Of a stretch of DNA of 64,000 bases, positions 30,681 through 43,238 are shown one piece after another. The notes beneath the pieces were generated by a model that was not told the DNA's origin, did not search any database, and saw nothing but the letters and a program-made list of their open reading frames with translations. Source of the DNA: Blastococcus saxobsidens DD2 (GTDB lineage: Bacteria; Actinomycetota; Actinomycetes; Mycobacteriales; Geodermatophilaceae); assembly GCF_000284015.1 (NCBI RefSeq), contig NC_016943.1, positions 4,567,541 to 4,631,540 of the forward strand, written 5' to 3'. A program made the translations under genes and the position numbers. Every line of letters begins with the position of its first letter. The first letter of the stretch is position 1.

Positions 30681-32120
30681 GTGCCGAAGCCCCCGACGAG
30701 CGAGACCGTCGACCTGCTGGTCGTCGGCGGTGGCACCGCCGGGCTCGTCGGGGCGCACACCGCCGCCACCCTCGGGGCCCGCACGATGCTGGTCGAGCAG
30801 GACCGCACCGGCGGCGACTGCCTGTGGACCGGCTGCGTGCCCTCCAAGGCCGTCCTCGCCGCCGCGACCGCCGCCGCCGACGCCCGCGCGGCCGGTCGCC
30901 TGGGCGTCGACACCGGGAAGGTCACCGTCGACTTCGCCCGGGTGCGCGCCCACGTCGCCGAGGCCATCGCCACCATCCAGCCGCAGGACTCCCCCGAGGC
31001 GCTCACCGCGGCCGGGGTGCGCGTCGTCCTCGGCAGGGCGGCGCTCACCGGGCCCGACACCGCGCTCGTCGACGGGCGGCCGGTCCGCTTCCGCGCCGCG
31101 CTGCTGGCCACCGGTGCCGCCCCGCTGGTGCCACCGATCGAGGGCATCGACACCGTCGATGCGCTCACCAGCGAGACGCTGTGGGATCTCGAGGAGCTCC
31201 CTCGCCGGCTGGTCGTCCTCGGCGGCGGCCCGATCGGCTGCGAGCTGGGTCAGGCCTTCGCCCGCCTGGGGTCGGAGGTCACGGTCGTCGACGGCCTCGA
31301 CCGGGTGCTCGGGCCCGAGGACGCCGACGCCGCCGCCCTGGTCGCGGCGGCGCTGCGCCGCGACGGCGTGCAGCTGCGGCTCGGCGCGGAGGGGACCCGG
31401 GTGGAGCCCGGCCTGCTGCACCTGGACGGCGGCAGCTCGGTGCCCTTCGACCGGCTGCTGGTCGCGGTCGGTCGCCGGCCGCGGACGAGCGACCTCGGCC
31501 TGGCGGCCGCCGGGGTGGAGCTGGACGAGCACGGCGCCGTCGCGGTCGACGGCTCGCTGCGCACCAGCAACCCGCGGGTGTGGGCCGCCGGTGACGTCAC
31601 CGGCACGCCCTTCTTCACCCACCTGTCCGGGATGCACGGCAGCATCGCGGCGGGCAACGCCGTCCTCGGGCTGCGCCGCACCGTCGATCCGGTGGTCCCC
31701 CGCGTCACCTACACCTCCCCCGAGGTGGCCTCGGTGGGCGTGAGCCCGGCCGAGGCCCGGGAGCGGGGGCTCACCGTCCGCCGCGTCGAGCACGCCACGG
31801 TCGACCGCGCCGTCGCGGAGGGTGGAACGGACGGGTTCACCTCCCTGGTCGTCGACGGTCGCCGGCTCGTCGGCGGCGTCGTCGTCGGCCCGCGCGCGGG
31901 CGAGACGCTCGGGGAGCTGACCCTGGCGATCCGCAAGGGGCTCACCACCTCCGACCTCGCCGGGACCACCCACGCCTATCCGACCTACAACGACGCGCTG
32001 GTCGACGCCGCAGTCGAGGACCTCCGCGCCCGGCTGGCCGACCCCCTGATCAGCGGCGCGCTGAGAGCCGCGGTGTGGGTGCGCGGGCGTCTGCGGGGCA
32101 CTCAGCGCAGCGAGCGGTAG
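30681..32120 (+). CDS. FAD-dependent disulfide reductase (dihydrolipoamide dehydrogenase / mercuric reductase-like)
   Basis: 479 residues, class I pyridine nucleotide-disulfide reductase. FAD fold VVGGGTAGLVGAHTA near residue 14, redox-active CxxxxC in GGDCLWTGCVPSK near residue 46, NAD(P) fold VLGGGPIGCELGQAFARLG, AAGDVTGTPFFTHL, and a C-terminal dimer domain with TTHAYPTYND. The usual His-x4-Glu of lipoamide dehydrogenase is HAYPTYND here, as in mercuric-reductase-like oxidases of unknown substrate. GTG 30681. Its 3' end overlaps the convergent CDP-alcohol transferase by 19 bp. Confidence 0.85.
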   Translation: MPKPPTSETVDLLVVGGGTAGLVGAHTAATLGARTMLVEQDRTGGDCLWTGCVPSKAVLAAATAAADARAAGRLGVDTGKVTVDFARVRAHVAEAIATIQPQDSPEALTAAGVRVVLGRAALTGPDTALVDGRPVRFRAALLATGAAPLVPPIEGIDTVDALTSETLWDLEELPRRLVVLGGGPIGCELGQAFARLGSEVTVVDGLDRVLGPEDADAAALVAAALRRDGVQLRLGAEGTRVEPGLLHLDGGSSVPFDRLLVAVGRRPRTSDLGLAAAGVELDEHGAVAVDGSLRTSNPRVWAAGDVTGTPFFTHLSGMHGSIAAGNAVLGLRRTVDPVVPRVTYTSPEVASVGVSPAEARERGLTVRRVEHATVDRAVAEGGTDGFTSLVVDGRRLVGGVVVGPRAGETLGELTLAIRKGLTTSDLAGTTHAYPTYNDALVDAAVEDLRARLADPLISGALRAAVWVRGRLRGTQRSER

Positions 32121-32728
32121 CCGATCCACATCCGGTGCGCGGCGCTGATCGCCACCACGACCGCCCAGACCCATGCCACCTGCCAGGCGATCGCGGGCAG
32201 CAGCAGCCACAGCGCGTGGACGGCGATCGTCTCGGTGCCCTCGGCCAGCCCACCGAGGAACGACAGCGACCGGCCGTCGTCGAGCTGCCGGCCGGCGCGC
32301 TCGGCGATGGAGGAGAACGCCAGGAAGGCCGTGCCGTTCACGTAGTAGGCCAGCAGGACGACGGCGAAGGGCTCCCACGGGGCGTCGAAGCCGCGGGTCG
32401 CGCCGATGGCCACGCCGAGCACCGTGCTGCCGTAGACGCAGAAGTCGGCGGTGATGTCGAAGAACCCGCCGCTGCCGGCGCCCCCCGGCGCACCAGCCGC
32501 ATGCCGCCGCCGGGCGAGCGGCCCGTCCAGCCCGTCGGCCAGCCGGGAGACCAGCCACAGCACCAGCGCCGCCGTCCACGCCTGGAGGCCGGCGGCCAGC
32601 GCGCTGCCCAGGCCCAGGACGAGCCCCGCGGCGGTGAGCCGGTCGGGGCTCAGCCACGGCCGGTCGAGCGCGCCCGCGGCGCGCGCCAGGGGCGCGTCGA
32701 GCACGCGCCGCGCCGCAGGATCGAGCAC
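32102..32728 (-). CDS. CDP-alcohol phosphatidyltransferase family protein (YnjF-like)
   Basis: About 208 residues with several membrane segments. The catalytic CDP-alcohol motif is present in extended form: SRLADGLDGPLARRRH (DGxxxxxAR), then after a Gly/Ala insertion GGFFDITADF giving the two last aspartates. Members join a CDP-linked lipid to an alcohol. GTG 32728 is used; GTG 32704 is alternative. It is divergent from the YnjB-like importer gene. In E. coli ynjF, of the same family, also sits beside ynjBCD, so this pairing may be meaningful. Confidence 0.82.
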   Translation of the reverse strand: MLDPAARRVLDAPLARAAGALDRPWLSPDRLTAAGLVLGLGSALAAGLQAWTAALVLWLVSRLADGLDGPLARRRHAAGAPGGAGSGGFFDITADFCVYGSTVLGVAIGATRGFDAPWEPFAVVLLAYYVNGTAFLAFSSIAERAGRQLDDGRSLSFLGGLAEGTETIAVHALWLLLPAIAWQVAWVWAVVVAISAAHRMWIGYRSLR

Positions 32729-32854
32729 GCCACCGTCCCCGGGGTCCGGGCGCCCGCCTGGCGGACGCGATCTAGGTCGGGCACGATCCTGTCGTAGCGA
32801 ACCCGTCGCGGCCACATCCGAAGGCGCCGCTCCGGAGGAGGAGGTCCCCGATTC

Positions 32855-34105
32855 ATGGCCCGACGACGCCCCGCGAACGGACGCGCCCGCTGGGCGGCAG
32901 CGGCGACCTGCGCGCTCGCCCTGGCGCTGACCGCGTGCTCGGCACCGGCGAGCGAGCCGGCGACCGCCGCGGACCGCGACTGGGACGACGTCCTCGCCGA
33001 CGCGGAGGGCCAGACGGTGCGGCTGTGGATGTACGGCGGCGACGACAAGGGCAACGCCTACGTCGACGACGTCCTCGCCCCCGCGGCCGCCGAGCTCGGC
33101 GTGACCCTGGAACGGGTGCCGATCGCCGACACCGCCGACGCGGTCAACCGGGTGCTCTCCGAGCGGCAGGCCGACGTCACCGACGGCGAGGTGGACCTGG
33201 TCTGGATCAACGGGGAGAACTTCGCGACCGGCCAGCAGGCCGGCGCCTGGCTGTGCGGCTGGACGTCGATGCTGCCGAACATGGCCTACGTCGACCCCGA
33301 CGACCCGCTGGTCAGCACCGACTTCGGGCGCGACGTGGAGGGCTGCGAGGCACCGTGGCACAAGGCCCAGTTCGCGCTGGTCTACGACGCGGCACGGGTC
33401 GAGGACCCGCCGGGCAGCGTCGCGGAGCTGCTGACCTGGATCGAGGCGAACCCGGGCCGCTTCACCTACCCCGCTCCGCCGGACTTCACCGGCTCGGTCT
33501 TCGTGCGCCAGGTGCTGTACGAGGTGTCCGGCGGGGTCGACGAGGTGCCGCTGGAGTTCTCGCAGGAGGCGTACGAGGAGCTCACCCCGGAGCTGTTCGA
33601 GACCCTGCAGGAGATCGAGCCCGAGCTCTGGCGCGGCGGTGAGACCTACCCGCAGGACCTCGGCGCGCTCGACCAGCTGTACGCCGACGGCCAGATCGAC
33701 TTCACCATGACCTACGGCCCGGCGACACTGCCCGACCTGGTGGCCGACGGCACCTTCCCGGAGACCACCCGGGTGCTGCTGGTCGAGGACGGCACGATCG
33801 GCAACGTGTCCTTCCTGGCCATCCCGGCGACGTCCGGCAGCCGGGCCGGCGCCATGGCGGTGGCGAACCTGGCGCTCTCCCCCGAGCAGCAGTTCCAGAA
33901 GGCCCGGCCGGAGGTGTGGGGGCAGTACACCGTCCTGGACCCGGACCTGCTCCCCGAGGAGTTCGGGGCCCGCTTCGCCGAGCTGCCGCAGTCGGAGGTC
34001 CTGCCGCCGTACGCCGAGCTGAGCGACGGCGCCGACCCCGAGGTGGAGGCGGAGTGGGTGACCGCCCTGGACGAGGGCTGGCGCCGGCAGATCGCCGCCG
34101 GCTGA
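32855..34105 (+). CDS. ABC transporter substrate-binding lipoprotein, YnjB family
   Basis: 416 residues. Signal sequence with lipobox LTAC, lipidated Cys28. The mature part is a family 1-like binding protein with WMYGGDDKGNAYVDDVLAP, VPIADTADAVNRVLSE, VDLVWINGENF and QFALVYD, all typical of the YnjB group (COG4134). ATG 32855 follows GGAGGAGGAGG. First of four genes (binding protein, two permeases, ATPase) packed with 0-10 bp gaps. Substrate unknown in any organism as far as I know; thiamin was once suggested by annotation only. Confidence 0.85.
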   Translation: MARRRPANGRARWAAAATCALALALTACSAPASEPATAADRDWDDVLADAEGQTVRLWMYGGDDKGNAYVDDVLAPAAAELGVTLERVPIADTADAVNRVLSERQADVTDGEVDLVWINGENFATGQQAGAWLCGWTSMLPNMAYVDPDDPLVSTDFGRDVEGCEAPWHKAQFALVYDAARVEDPPGSVAELLTWIEANPGRFTYPAPPDFTGSVFVRQVLYEVSGGVDEVPLEFSQEAYEELTPELFETLQEIEPELWRGGETYPQDLGALDQLYADGQIDFTMTYGPATLPDLVADGTFPETTRVLLVEDGTIGNVSFLAIPATSGSRAGAMAVANLALSPEQQFQKARPEVWGQYTVLDPDLLPEEFGARFAELPQSEVLPPYAELSDGADPEVEAEWVTALDEGWRRQIAAG

Positions 34106-34115
34106 GCGGCCCCCC

Positions 34116-34976
34116 GTGACGTCGACCGAGCGCCCGACCGGCCCGCGGAGGGGCGCGGTGCTCCTGGTGCTCCCGGCGCTGGTCCCCGTCGTCGCCGTCG
34201 TCGGTGCTGCGCTCGTCTCCGCCGCGCTGCTCAGCCTGGGGCTCGCGCCCCTGGTGGGCGAACCGCGGCTCTCCCTCGACGCCTACCGGGACGCCGCCGG
34301 CGACCTCGGCACCGGCATCGGCCTCTCGCTGGGCATCGCGGCCACCGCCACCCTCGTCGCCACCGTGGTCGGGCTGTGCCTGGCCCTGGCCGCGACCGCC
34401 GCCGTCCGCCGCAGCCGGCTGCTCGGCGCGCTGGCCGCGCTCACCATCCCCATCCCGCACCTGGTCGGGGCGGCCGCGATGGGCCTGCTGCTCGCCGACG
34501 CCGGCTTCCTGTCCCGGCTGCTCGGCGTCGACCCGTCGTCGTGGCCGCCGCTGGTGGGCGGCCCGCTGTGGCTGGCGGTCGTCGCCGAGTACGCCTGGAA
34601 GGAGTCGGCGTTCGTCGCCCTCGTCGTCGCGGGGGTGCTCTCCTCCCGGGCGGCGTCCTACGGGGAGACGGCGGCGCTGCTCGGCGCCGGCCGCTGGGCC
34701 AGGCTGCGGCACGTCACCCTGCCGCTGGCTGCCCCTGCGCTGGGCGGCACGGCCGCGGTCAGCTTCGTGTACACGCTGGGCTCCTACGAGGTGGCCGCGC
34801 TGCTCGGCCGCGCCCATCCGGAGCCGTTGCCGGTGCTGGCCTACCGGCTGTTCACCTCCATCGACCTGGCCGCGCGACCGCAGGCCGCCGCGGTGGCGCT
34901 CACCACGGCGGGGCTGGCCCTGGTCGTCGTCCTCCTCTCGCTGCGCGCGCTGCGGCGGCTGGCGGCCGAGCAGTGA
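34116..34976 (+). CDS. ABC transporter permease, YnjC N-terminal-half type
   Basis: 286 residues, six membrane segments. The BPD permease EAA loop reads AALLGAGRWARLRHVTLPLAAPAL near residue 185. E. coli YnjC is one fused protein of two such halves; here the halves are separate genes. GTG 34116, 10 bp after the binding-protein stop; its stop overlaps the next GTG by 4 bp. Confidence 0.85.
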   Translation: MTSTERPTGPRRGAVLLVLPALVPVVAVVGAALVSAALLSLGLAPLVGEPRLSLDAYRDAAGDLGTGIGLSLGIAATATLVATVVGLCLALAATAAVRRSRLLGALAALTIPIPHLVGAAAMGLLLADAGFLSRLLGVDPSSWPPLVGGPLWLAVVAEYAWKESAFVALVVAGVLSSRAASYGETAALLGAGRWARLRHVTLPLAAPALGGTAAVSFVYTLGSYEVAALLGRAHPEPLPVLAYRLFTSIDLAARPQAAAVALTTAGLALVVVLLSLRALRRLAAEQ

Positions 34977-35761
34977 CGGCTCCACCGGCGGTGCTGGCCG
35001 CCTCCCGGGCCGGGCGCGCGCTGCTGGCGCTGTGGCTGGTGCTGCCGCTGCTCCCGCTGCTGCTGTGGGCCTTCGCCGACCGGTGGACCTTCCCCGCCGT
35101 CCTGCCGCAGGAGTGGGGTACCCGGGGGGCCGAGGAGGCGCTGGCCGCGGGTGCCGGTGGGGCGTTCCTGACCTCGACGCTGCTCGGCGCCGTCGTCGCG
35201 CTGCTGGCCACGCCGCTGGGCGCCATGGCCGGGCGGGCGCTGGCCGCACGGCAGGTGCCCGGCGGCACCGCCGTCCTCGCCGTGCTGCTCTCGCCGCTGG
35301 CGCTCCCCCCGTTCGCCGTGGCGCTCGGCCTGGACGTGCTGCTGCTGCGGCTGGGCATCCCGGCGGCGGCGGGCGTCGTCGTCCTGCTGGTCGTCGCCGC
35401 GCTGCCGTACACGACCCTGACCATGCGGGCGGCCTACGCCGCCCACGACCGGGGCTTCGAGGACGAGGCGCGCGTCCTCGGCGCCACCCGATGGCAGACC
35501 GTGCGCTCGGTGCAGCTGCCGCTGGTCGCCCCGGCGCTGGCGGGGGCTGCCTTCCTCGCGTTCCTGGTCGGCTGGAGCGACTACATCGTCACCGTGCTGG
35601 TCGGCGGTGGGCGGCTGACCACGCTGCCGCTGCTGGTGGCGTCCGCTGCGTCGGCGACCGGGAGCGACGCCCAGGTGGCGACCCTGTCGCTGACCTCGGT
35701 CCTGCCGCCGGTCGCGCTGCTGCTGATCGTCGGCGCACTGGGACGGAGGGGGCGCCGGTGA
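34973..35761 (+). CDS. ABC transporter permease, YnjC C-terminal-half type
   Basis: 262 residues, six membrane segments. EAA loop ARVLGATRWQTVRSVQLPLVAPAL near residue 160, then FLVGWSDYIVTVLVGGGRLTTLPLL, matching the second half of YnjC-like permeases. GTG 34973 overlaps the first permease stop; its own stop overlaps the ATPase GTG by 4 bp. Forms the channel with the other half. Confidence 0.85.
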   Translation: MTAPPAVLAASRAGRALLALWLVLPLLPLLLWAFADRWTFPAVLPQEWGTRGAEEALAAGAGGAFLTSTLLGAVVALLATPLGAMAGRALAARQVPGGTAVLAVLLSPLALPPFAVALGLDVLLLRLGIPAAAGVVVLLVVAALPYTTLTMRAAYAAHDRGFEDEARVLGATRWQTVRSVQLPLVAPALAGAAFLAFLVGWSDYIVTVLVGGGRLTTLPLLVASAASATGSDAQVATLSLTSVLPPVALLLIVGALGRRGRR

Positions 35762-36858
35762 GCGGCGGCGCGCTGCGGCTGACCGGGCTGACCCGGGTGC
35801 ACGGCAAGGGCTCGGTGCCCGCGCTGGCCGACGTCGACCTGGAGGTGCCCGCGGGCTCCTGCGTGGCCGTCCTCGGCCCCTCGGGGTCGGGCAAGAGCAC
35901 GGTGCTGCGGCTCACCGCCGGTCTGGACGAGCCGACCGCGGGCAGCGTCCACCTCGACGGCGTGGACCTGGCCGGCGTCCTGCCCGAGCGCCGGGGGATG
36001 GCGATGGTCTTCCAGCGGCCGCTGCTGTTCCCGCACCTGTCCGTGCGGGACAACGTGGCCTTCGCCGACCGGGTACGCGGGGCGCCGCGGCGGGCGGCGC
36101 GGCGGCGGGCGGAGGAGTTCCTCGAGCTGGTGCAGCTGGGCGGCTACGGCGGCCGGCCGGCGCGGGCGCTGTCGGGCGGGCAGGAGCAGCGGGTGGCCCT
36201 GGCCCGGGCGCTGGCCGCCGAACCTCGGGTCCTGCTGCTCGACGAGCCGTTCAGCGCGCTCGACGCCCGGCTGCGCGAGGAGATGCACGAGCTGCTGGCC
36301 GGCCTGCGCATGCGCCTGGACCCGACGATCCTGCTGGTCACCCACGACCACGCGGAGGCCGCCGCGCTGGCCGACCGCGTCGCGGTGCTCGACGGTGGGC
36401 GGTTGCTGCAGGCCGGGCCGATGCGCGAGCTCTACGCCCGCCCGGCCTCGCTGGCGGTCAGCCGGCTGCTGGGCGGGCGCACGGAGGTCGCGGGCGTGGT
36501 GCGCGACGGGCGGCACGAGTCACCGCTGGGGGCGCTGGACCTCGCTGCGCCGGTGCCGGACGGCCCCGCCGTGCTCGTCGTCCGGCACGAGGCGGTGCGA
36601 GTGACCACCGCCGCCGATCCCGCCGCCGACGCCGTCGGGACCGCGGTCCGGGTGCGCCCGCGCGGGCTGCGCGCCCTGGTCACCGTCGAGGTGACCGGCG
36701 ACGGCCGGACGGCCACGGTGGACGCCGAGCTCGGCCCGGGCGAGGACGTGGCCACGGGCCGCACGGTGGGGTTGCGGCTGCCGGTGGCCGACCGCTGGGT
36801 CGTGCCAGTGGACCACGACGCGCCGGCGCAGCCGGTGCCATCGCCCAGCGACGCCTGA
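35758..36858 (+). CDS. ABC transporter ATP-binding protein, YnjD type with TOBE domain
   Basis: 366 residues. Walker A GPSGSGKST at 40-48, Q-loop MVFQRPLLFPHLSVRDN, signature LSGGQEQRVALARAL, Walker B LLLDEPFSALDAR, switch His in VTHDHAEA. Residues 240-355 form a TOBE-like regulatory tail absent from E. coli YnjD, more like PotA/CysA ATPases. GTG 35758. Last gene of the importer unit. Confidence 0.88.
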   Translation: MSGGALRLTGLTRVHGKGSVPALADVDLEVPAGSCVAVLGPSGSGKSTVLRLTAGLDEPTAGSVHLDGVDLAGVLPERRGMAMVFQRPLLFPHLSVRDNVAFADRVRGAPRRAARRRAEEFLELVQLGGYGGRPARALSGGQEQRVALARALAAEPRVLLLDEPFSALDARLREEMHELLAGLRMRLDPTILLVTHDHAEAAALADRVAVLDGGRLLQAGPMRELYARPASLAVSRLLGGRTEVAGVVRDGRHESPLGALDLAAPVPDGPAVLVVRHEAVRVTTAADPAADAVGTAVRVRPRGLRALVTVEVTGDGRTATVDAELGPGEDVATGRTVGLRLPVADRWVVPVDHDAPAQPVPSPSDA

Positions 36859-36913: not shown

Positions 36914-37201
36914 ATGACTACCCTGCCGCTGTCCGAGGTGAAGGCGCGCCTGTCGGAGATCGCCGAAGGCGTAGCGACGACGCATGAGCGTGTCCAGATC
37001 ACCAAGAACGGGCGCGACTACGTGGTGCTCCTTGCCGCCGAGGACCTCGAGTCCATCGAGGCCACCCTCGAGTTGCTCAGCGACCACGATGCTCGGTCGC
37101 GCGTGGCCCGCGCCGAGGAGGACATCGAGCGGGGGAACGTGCTGGACGAGGCCCAGGTGCGCGCGCTGCTCACCGCGCGGCGGTCCGGATCGACTGGGTG
37201 A
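36914..37201 (+). CDS. Phd/YefM family antitoxin
   Basis: 95 residues. The N-terminal PhdYeFM DNA-binding fold is clear: LPLSEVKARLSEIAEGV, then RVQITKNGRDYVVLLAAEDLESIEATLELL. The C-terminal acidic helix (about 60-85) would wrap the toxin. Antitoxin and complex normally repress their own promoter. Stop overlaps the toxin GTG by 4 bp. Codon use has lower GC at third positions than neighbours. Confidence 0.9.
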   Translation: MTTLPLSEVKARLSEIAEGVATTHERVQITKNGRDYVVLLAAEDLESIEATLELLSDHDARSRVARAEEDIERGNVLDEAQVRALLTARRSGSTG

Positions 37202-37449
37202 CCTTTTACATCGTGGTGACCCGGACGGCCGGACGGCAGCTCGCCGAACGCCTATCGGAGTCAGCTGCCACAGCATGCGTCGAGTTCTTGTTCGGCCCGT
37301 TGGCAGACGAGCCGCATCGCGTCGGTGCGCCGCTGCGTGCCCCGTTCACCGGTCAATGGCGCGCGCGCCGAGGCGAGTACCGCGTCCGCTATCGCATCGA
37401 TGATGCGAACGGCATCGTCTACGTGCTCGACATCGATCACCGAAGGTGA
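37198..37449 (+). CDS. RelE/ParE superfamily toxin
   Basis: 83 residues. TFYIVVTRTAGRQLAERL at the start and the core WRARRGEYRVRYRIDDANGIVYVLDIDHRR at the end fit RelE-type ribosome-dependent mRNA endonucleases; the basic residues and the closing HRR are typical. GTG 37198 overlaps the antitoxin stop, giving coupled synthesis. ParE-like gyrase poison is the alternative; RelE is favoured by the Phd/YefM partner. Confidence 0.88.
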   Translation: MTFYIVVTRTAGRQLAERLSESAATACVEFLFGPLADEPHRVGAPLRAPFTGQWRARRGEYRVRYRIDDANGIVYVLDIDHRR

Positions 37450-42447: not shown

Positions 42448-42518
42448 GGGTCCGAACCTAGCCGCGCCGCCGCCCGGGGGCCCGGCGGCGGGCCGGGAGC
42501 GCCGATACCGTGGAGCCC

Positions 42519-43238
42519 ATGTCGTTCCTCGCCGCTGCAGCCTCCGACGAGGGTGGCATCACCGGATTCCTGCTCGACCTGATCGACACCCTGGGGGCGG
42601 TCGGCGTGGGTCTGGCCATCCTGCTGGAGACGGTCGTCCCCCCGATCCCCAGCGAGGTCGTCCTCGGTGCAGCGGGGGTGCTGATCAACGACGGCCGGAT
42701 GTCGCTCCTCCCGGTGATCCTTTTCGCCACCCTGGGCTCGATCATCGGCGCCGTCTTCTTCTACTACGTGGGCCGGGCCCTGGGTCCGCGGCGGGCGCAC
42801 GCGTTCCTCGACCGGCTGCCGCTGGTGGAGACCGCGGACGTCGACCGCACCTTCGCCTGGTTCGAGCGGCACGGCCGGGGGGCGGTCTTCTTCGGCCGGA
42901 TGGTGCCGATCGTGCGCAGCTTCATCTCCGTGCCCGCGGGCGTGGTCCGGATGCCGTTCCTGCAGTTCATCGTCTACACCGCCGCGGGCAGCCTCATCTG
43001 GAACGGCGTGCTCATCGGCCTGGGCGTAGCCCTCGGCGACGTGGTCAACGAGTACCTGGAGTACGTCGACTACCTGATCTACGCAGCGGCCGCGCTCGGT
43101 ATCGGCTGGCTGGTCTGGAAGCGGGCCAAGGACGTCCGCCGGCACCGCCGAGCACGGGCGACCGCGGACCGTGAGGGGACGGCGACCGCGGACCGTCGGG
43201 GAACGGCGAGCGGGGACACCGGCCGCCCGGCAGCATGA
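42519..43238 (+). CDS. DedA family membrane protein
   Basis: About 239 residues. Family blocks: ILLETVVPPIPSEVVLGAAG, GSIIGAVFFYYVGRALG, FFGRMVPIVRSFISVPAG. DedA proteins are lipid-handling (undecaprenyl-phosphate or phospholipid flippase) or proton-dependent membrane proteins. The C-terminus is a charged tail with a short repeat (TADREGTATADRRGTA). ATG 42519 is chosen because TACCGT at 42506-42511 sits 7 bases upstream as a leaderless-type -10; GTG 42510 would add three residues. Stop overlaps the HAD gene start by 4 bp. Confidence 0.87.
   Translation: MSFLAAAASDEGGITGFLLDLIDTLGAVGVGLAILLETVVPPIPSEVVLGAAGVLINDGRMSLLPVILFATLGSIIGAVFFYYVGRALGPRRAHAFLDRLPLVETADVDRTFAWFERHGRGAVFFGRMVPIVRSFISVPAGVVRMPFLQFIVYTAAGSLIWNGVLIGLGVALGDVVNEYLEYVDYLIYAAAALGIGWLVWKRAKDVRRHRRARATADREGTATADRRGTASGDTGRPAA

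Follow-up and report, generated by a model that had tools for sequence, protein, structure and literature searches.

A recurrent gene module of a YnjBCD importer, a YnjF-type CDP-alcohol transferase and a flavin reductase in Blastococcus saxobsidens, with a putative role in membrane lipid synthesis

Introduction

The YnjBCD importer of Blastococcus saxobsidens DD2 is encoded beside a CDP-alcohol transferase and a flavin disulfide reductase, which raises the question of what is imported and whether it ends up in a lipid. The locus occupies positions 30681–36858 of the window, the 64,000-nucleotide stretch of DNA analysed here, which corresponds to 4567541–4631540 of the 4.88-Mb one-contig genome. 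A preceding reading made from the letters alone (the sequence-only reading) placed six genes there, those of the reductase, the transferase, a YnjB lipoprotein, two permeases and an ATPase, and all six were found at their coordinates with matching domains and profiles. As described below, the same genes recur together in other bacteria and appear to form a module. The best-supported reading, unproven and with about an even chance of being correct, is that this module takes up an alcohol and uses it to build a special membrane lipid. The most informative parts of the analysis, a DedA protein as a further partner and the replacement of the importer by a CNT permease, both go beyond the sequence-only reading.

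Recurrence of the module

Neighbourhoods of ynjB were compared in the best 80, by YnjB profile, of at least 582 confirmed genome loci, not a random sample, to which the window, E. coli K-12 and seven plasmid loci were added to give 89 loci. All-against-all clustering without seeds recovered YnjB in 89, YnjC in 84 and YnjD in 83 of them, and the commonest partners after these were YnjF (47), TVP38/VTT proteins (42), the reductase (38) and a second flavoprotein (17); antisense shadow open reading frames (ORFs), judged by the position of one representative each, were left out of this ranking. For seeded counts, with thresholds of 80 bits for YnjF, 50 for TVP38 and 150 for the reductase at up to 8 kb, the 69 loci with 5 kb on both sides (“well-flanked”) were kept and 20 shorter ones were dropped. 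Among the 60 well-flanked scan loci YnjF lies near 35, TVP38 near 33, the reductase near 31, all three near 29 and none near 23. The reductase, suspected earlier to belong to the system, does so: it is present at 30 of the 35 such loci with YnjF vs 1 of the 25 without.

All three partners are found at 12/16 of the well-flanked loci of Actinomycetota, 17/24 of Bacillota, 1/4 of Chloroflexota and 1/19 of Pseudomonadota. The single locus of Fusobacteriota has YnjF and TVP38, that of Deinococcota has the reductase and no YnjF, and all three are missing from both loci of Thermodesulfobacteriota and from the two unplaced ones. A quick YnjB tree shows eight changes of state for YnjF.

Genome-wide searches extend this picture. 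In Bacillota (the phylum of G296; 299 genomes, YnjF hits with E up to 1e-30), YnjB occurs in 27 genomes, YnjF in 20 and both in 18, and for 17 of the 20 YnjF hits the distance to YnjB is at most 3.5 kb, the remainder being on another contig (G563) or in genomes with no YnjB (G537, G358). In 296 genomes of Actinomycetota, YnjB is present in 27; with a line at 190 bits or more, drawn at a score gap, there are 16 YnjF hits in 15 genomes, 14 of them with YnjB. For ten of these 16 hits YnjB is no further than 3.5 kb away, and the unlinked ones are on another contig (G026, G270, G163, G108), 538 kb away (G076) or in a genome without YnjB (G194); hits of 154–166 bits in three genomes without YnjB (G284, G156, G113) fall under the line. 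Among 289 genomes of Alphaproteobacteria (the class of G597, a Limimaricola), YnjF occurs in 64, YnjB in 49 and both in 40.

The pairing of YnjB with YnjF across distant phyla, supposed earlier, is thus no accident; members of Actinomycetota, Bacillota, Fusobacteriota, Chloroflexota and Pseudomonadota all show it. It holds firmly in Bacillota and Actinomycetota and more loosely in Alphaproteobacteria, where co-occurrence is stronger than linkage. A lack of enrichment of the transferase or the reductase near YnjBCD, named beforehand as the result that would overturn the proposal, was not seen in this survey, linkage in Alphaproteobacteria being weak.

Several single loci may be mentioned. An enterobacterial plasmid (L044, CP063738.1) carries the module, with IS150 adjoining a shortened TVP38 gene, and ynjF genes equally similar to that of E. 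coli (48.5%) are found on plasmids of Klebsiella, Salmonella, Citrobacter and Providencia (hits H71–H91). In a Deinococcus plasmid (L042, 9051–9938) a lysophospholipid acyltransferase gene directly precedes ynjB, and no YnjF was found at that locus. A flavoprotein resembling the SelD N-terminal part (L077:5537–6628, minus strand, and relatives; TIGR03169 below cut-off) lies near the module in Bacillota, the enterobacterial plasmid and the order of G743.

The YnjF transferase

The transferase gene of the window (32102..32728, minus strand) encodes 208 amino acids from a GTG start at 32728, and its product is 36% identical to E. coli YnjF, which bears out its earlier assignment to the YnjF type. 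It matches PF01066 with about 26.7–26.9 bits (cut-off 22), the lowest score of the eight PF01066 matches in the genome, which makes a housekeeping function unlikely. The motif of class I CDP-alcohol phosphotransferases, D1xxD2G1xxAR...G2xxxD3xxxD4, is complete, and D65, D68, G69, A72, R73, G87, D91 and D95 are invariant in all 22 aligned YnjF proteins. In the model of the protein a first helix precedes the six transmembrane ones.

In the phosphatidylinositol-phosphate (PIP) synthase RsPIPS, Arg153 and Arg191 bind inositol phosphate, and mutation of the R153-equivalent Arg of the M. tuberculosis enzyme MtPgsA1 severely cuts activity, according to the accessible text of PMC4634129. With the RsPIPS numbering placed through the single offset that gives Arg at both positions of the 5d92 chain, YnjF has Thr, Ala or Gly at the R153 position in 22/22 aligned proteins and never Arg, while the R191 position is occupied by the nearly invariant R199. 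YnjF therefore falls outside the prokaryotic PIP synthases, which have Arg at both positions. The same part of PMC4634129 describes eukaryotic phosphatidylinositol synthases, in which R153 and R191 are not conserved either, as using free inositol, which would fit an unphosphorylated acceptor for YnjF as well.

YnjF also matches two models of phosphatidylcholine synthase (Pcs) with 24.4 and 20.0 bits, vs cut-offs of 400 and 350. Choline import by ChoXWV followed by Pcs, a CDP-alcohol transferase that joins the choline to CDP-diacylglycerol, is a known case of an ABC-imported alcohol attached to a lipid, and the same import-and-attach logic is proposed here for the ynj module, which differs from it in its DedA and reductase partners.

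A lipid context for ynjF comes from Alphaproteobacteria, where 31 of the 64 YnjF regions were fetched, 20 of the 24 from genomes without YnjB and 11 of the 40 from genomes with it. In seven of the 31 (L146, L154, L157, L159, L166, L170, L172) the order is psd-pssA-ynjF on one strand with ynjF directly behind, that is, an extra CDP-alcohol transferase gene follows those for phosphatidylethanolamine. In L157, which was checked, Psd scores 353 bits vs a cut-off of 315, PssA 100 bits, just below its cut-off of 107, and CDP-OH_P_transf is above its own cut-off. Other fetched regions hold TVP38 with the reductase (five: L136, L137, L144, L145, L148), YnjB (one: L174) or none of these (18). The link to a lipid head group suggested by the sequence-only reading thus gains from the psd-pssA-ynjF clusters and from the DedA partner, while the imported compound is only presumed to be the source of that head group.

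The reductase and the DedA partner

The FAD-dependent reductase of the window (30681..32120, plus strand; 479 amino acids, GTG start) belongs to the MerA/lipoamide dehydrogenase superfamily, with Pyr_redox_2 at 206.7 bits and Pyr_redox_dim at 89.5. Its gene does overlap that of the transferase by 19 nt, as had been noticed, but the two are convergent, so that they cannot share a transcript. The redox cysteine pair C47/C52 is present. The position of the lipoamide dehydrogenase His is taken by Tyr433 (segment HAYPT vs HAHPT in 1ebd), and the mercuric reductase 5x1y has Tyr at the matching place too; together with Pro434, Tyr433 is invariant in all 16 aligned reductase rows, the row of L045 being divergent. 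The best PDB match is mercuric reductase (250.3 bits), followed by lipoamide dehydrogenases (240.6). MerA carries a Cys pair in its C-terminal part, where the window protein has no Cys, and the TIGR02053 score of 346.3 bits vs a cut-off of 454.45 likewise places it outside MerA. In lipoamide dehydrogenase and glutathione reductase the C-terminal His of the HxHPT segment is an active-site residue; with Tyr in its place the window protein belongs to neither and is only a putative disulfide reductase.

The regular module member missing from the sequence-only reading is a DedA protein of the TVP38/COG0398 type; the COG0398 assignment of the module proteins is predicted from similarity to E. coli YdjX and YdjZ. 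In Rhodococcus (L048, L049, L050) its gene lies between ynjF and ynjB, and no DedA gene is found between them in the window or in Modestobacter. The window genome encodes two VTT proteins. One, at C1:786234, matches the module DedA proteins of Rhodococcus, Promicromonospora and Arthrobacter with 171–204 bits and is unlinked to the ynj locus; the other, in the window at 42510–43238 (plus strand), is not matched by phmmer to any of eight DedA proteins of the module. Importer, transferase and reductase are thus linked in the window and the DedA relative is encoded elsewhere, which falls short of the full module.

In Falsirhodobacter the DedA protein and the reductase form one polypeptide, followed by ynjF and ynjBCD with overlapping ends, and a DedA-reductase fusion is annotated (annotation only) at ynjF in two Paracoccus plasmids and one Pseudooceanicola plasmid. 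Fusions of TVP38/COG0398 proteins with flavin disulfide reductases, the same partner pair as in the ynj module, are described in the accessible parts of PMC10127716, where the family is proposed to scramble phospholipids and is reported essential in Caulobacter and Dinoroseobacter. The word “operon” is absent from the main text of that paper, and YnjBCD, YnjF and CNT partners are absent from those parts. In Ilyobacter (L045, 8086–9633) a rhodanese is fused to a VTT (DedA) protein.

The YnjBCD importer

The ynjB gene (32855..34105, plus strand) is divergent from ynjF, with a gap of 126 nt (32729..32854). It encodes a solute-binding lipoprotein of 416 amino acids with the lipobox LTAC in its sequence and an SBP_bac_8 domain, matched by NCBIfam NF008633/PRK11622 over residues 21–412 with 457.9 bits vs a cut-off of 203. 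Its nearest relative is YnjB of Modestobacter (Actinomycetota; 67%). Two BPD_transp_1 permeases follow on the same strand (34116..34976 and 34973..35761), both matching the family of the fused E. coli YnjC. The ATPase expected for the importer is present (35758..36858, plus strand), but it is of the long PotA/CysA type, with 366 amino acids vs 217 in E. coli YnjD. Directly 3' of its gene lies a pair for a Phd/YefM-type antitoxin and a ParE-type toxin (36914–37449, plus strand).

In E. coli, ydjXYZ-ynjABCD, ynjE and ynjF bring YnjB, YnjC, the ATPase, YnjF and two DedA proteins (YdjX, YdjZ) into one neighbourhood. That locus has a fused YnjC, a short YnjD, YdjY, the sulfurtransferase YnjE, two linked DedA genes and no flavin reductase, whereas the window has a split permease, the reductase and an unlinked DedA relative. 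The parts available of two papers give FNR as a direct activator of ydjXYZ-ynjABCD and ynjE (PMC3688515) and list ynjA and ynjB in a BaeR regulon table (PMC2731931). The literature searched gave neither a known substrate nor a known role for YnjBCD and YnjF of E. coli, and no proven one for the COG0398 DedA family.

Some ynjB genes stand without ynjF. Five such loci in four phyla (L085, L091, L099, L102, L103), which fall in two groups of the YnjB tree, have dihydroxyacetone (DHA) kinase, D-psicose-epimerase-like and nucleoside-hydrolase neighbours, these families being named from one or two members each; L102 also holds an ADP-ribosylglycohydrolase and a protein of the nucleoside-phosphorylase type. 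The nucleoside hydrolase, DHA kinase and epimerase neighbours suggest that proteins of the YnjB family may bind ribosyl or sugar-like compounds.

Exchange of the importer for a CNT permease

On a Sphingopyxis plasmid ynjF is accompanied by genes for a CNT permease, a TonB receptor and a TVP38-reductase fusion, with no YnjB in the region. In the order of G743, YnjF is encoded in 31 of 196 genomes; the 31 loci consist of 30 fetched regions and L144, and one of them, L183, is the Sphingopyxis plasmid again. At 22 of the 31 a CNT gene lies on the same strand within 47 nt of ynjF, some overlapping it by ORF extents, and it is accompanied by a TVP38-reductase fusion in 20 and by the second flavoprotein in 18. 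Five loci (L194, L197, L198, L200, L201) have TVP38 and reductase, fused or split, with no adjacent CNT, and four (L199, L202, L203, L204) have neither adjacent. YnjB is absent from 27/27 searched genomes of this order with YnjF, G743 itself being negative and G906, G926 and G921 lying outside the search. A CNT gene thus replaces YnjBCD beside ynjF.

In vcCNT (3tij), the base is contacted by Gln154 and, via water, by Thr155 and Glu156, the ribose by Glu332, Asn368 and Ser371, and both by Phe366 (PMC4139061). All 22 linked CNT proteins have GVVE where vcCNT has GQTE, with Gln-Thr replaced by Val-Val, and so lack the Gln154-Thr155 part of the canonical set of nucleoside contacts, while the positions of Glu332, Asn368 and Ser371 are kept in 22/22; the Phe366 position is Val in 17 and Phe in five. 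Four other CNT proteins of the order, encoded 6.7–6.8 kb from ynjF (L194, L197, L198, L199), keep GQSE and Phe. The two linked CNT proteins tested match Pfam Nucleos_tra2_C/N and Gate above cut-off and TIGR00804 below it. Because the ribose contacts are retained and the base contacts lost, the linked permease probably imports something ribose-like that lacks the usual base.

Proposed function and alternatives

According to the preferred reading, the YnjB-permease-ATPase importer, or the CNT permease in the order of G743, would take up a small hydroxylated, perhaps ribose-like compound, presumably the same for both. YnjF, a transferase with six helices, would join this soluble alcohol as acceptor to CDP-diacylglycerol as donor, yielding a phospholipid and CMP; the DedA protein would shift the lipid between leaflets, and the reductase, fused or adjacent to it, may supply electrons for some further step. 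A narrower version is tentative and rather improbable as a whole: a phospholipid not described before, carrying as head group a ribose-like polyol or non-canonical nucleoside taken up from outside, with YnjBCD and a base-blind CNT as interchangeable importers, attachment by YnjF of the unphosphorylated head group, and DedA and reductase to move or maintain the lipid. The ribosyl-like ligand is suggested by the contacts kept in the CNT and, separately, by the neighbours of some YnjF-less ynjB genes.

Against a tight link of importer and transferase stand the Alphaproteobacteria, in which YnjB is found at a distance of 3 kb or less for only 3 of the 64 YnjF hits (G850, G763, G844), the next-nearest distances being 23, 29 and 54 kb. 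The hint at ribosyl or sugar-like ligands is not general either, since another set of YnjB genes without YnjF (Limimaricola and kin) has a DsbD-like protein instead of the neighbours that point to sugars. The module might alternatively handle a redox-active sulfur, selenium or metal compound, taken up by the importer and reduced or transferred by reductase, rhodanese, ferredoxin-like and SelD-N-like proteins, with YnjF merely adapting the membrane. Such a function is unlikely, if only slightly less probable than the narrower lipid proposal. It would suit the mercuric reductase as top match of the reductase with Tyr for His, the rhodaneses of Ilyobacter, whose rhodanese-VTT fusion matches ExtH with 91.6 bits (cut-off 200), the second flavoprotein with its TIGR03169 (Nterm_to_SelD) match of 270.3 bits vs a cut-off of 310, the CMD/AhpD-like proteins near the locus, Msr in Metabacillus and the activation by FNR in E. 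coli. However, a rhodanese scores above threshold at only 3/69 well-flanked loci, and the CDP-alcohol transferase as commonest partner, its placement behind psd-pssA and the relative of nucleoside permeases in place of the importer are left unexplained.

More doubtful still is a polyamine-type YnjBCD tied to YnjF only indirectly, through shared regulation under membrane stress. The SBP_bac_8 domain of YnjB agrees with it; among solved chains, those nearest to YnjB in sequence are polyamine-binding proteins, which are also frequent among Foldseek matches, and a table in the review PMC9397018 enters YnjB as homologous to a binding protein for polyamine transport. Equally improbable is a soluble product in place of a lipid: in the manner of DIPP synthase, YnjF would combine the imported alcohol with a polar donor linked to CDP, and the resulting phosphodiester would serve as an osmolyte or cofactor. 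Of the new findings, those that tell most are the DedA partner, the position of ynjF behind psd-pssA, and the CNT subfamily, with nothing but its ribose-binding side retained, that takes the place of YnjBCD.

The module brings the orphans YnjBCD, YnjF and the COG0398 DedA proteins together under a single question that can be tested, and the natural replacement of YnjBCD by CNT narrows the likely ligand to ribose-like alcohols. If the preferred reading is true, there would be a new phospholipid class and a route of head-group uptake common to several phyla, E. coli included.

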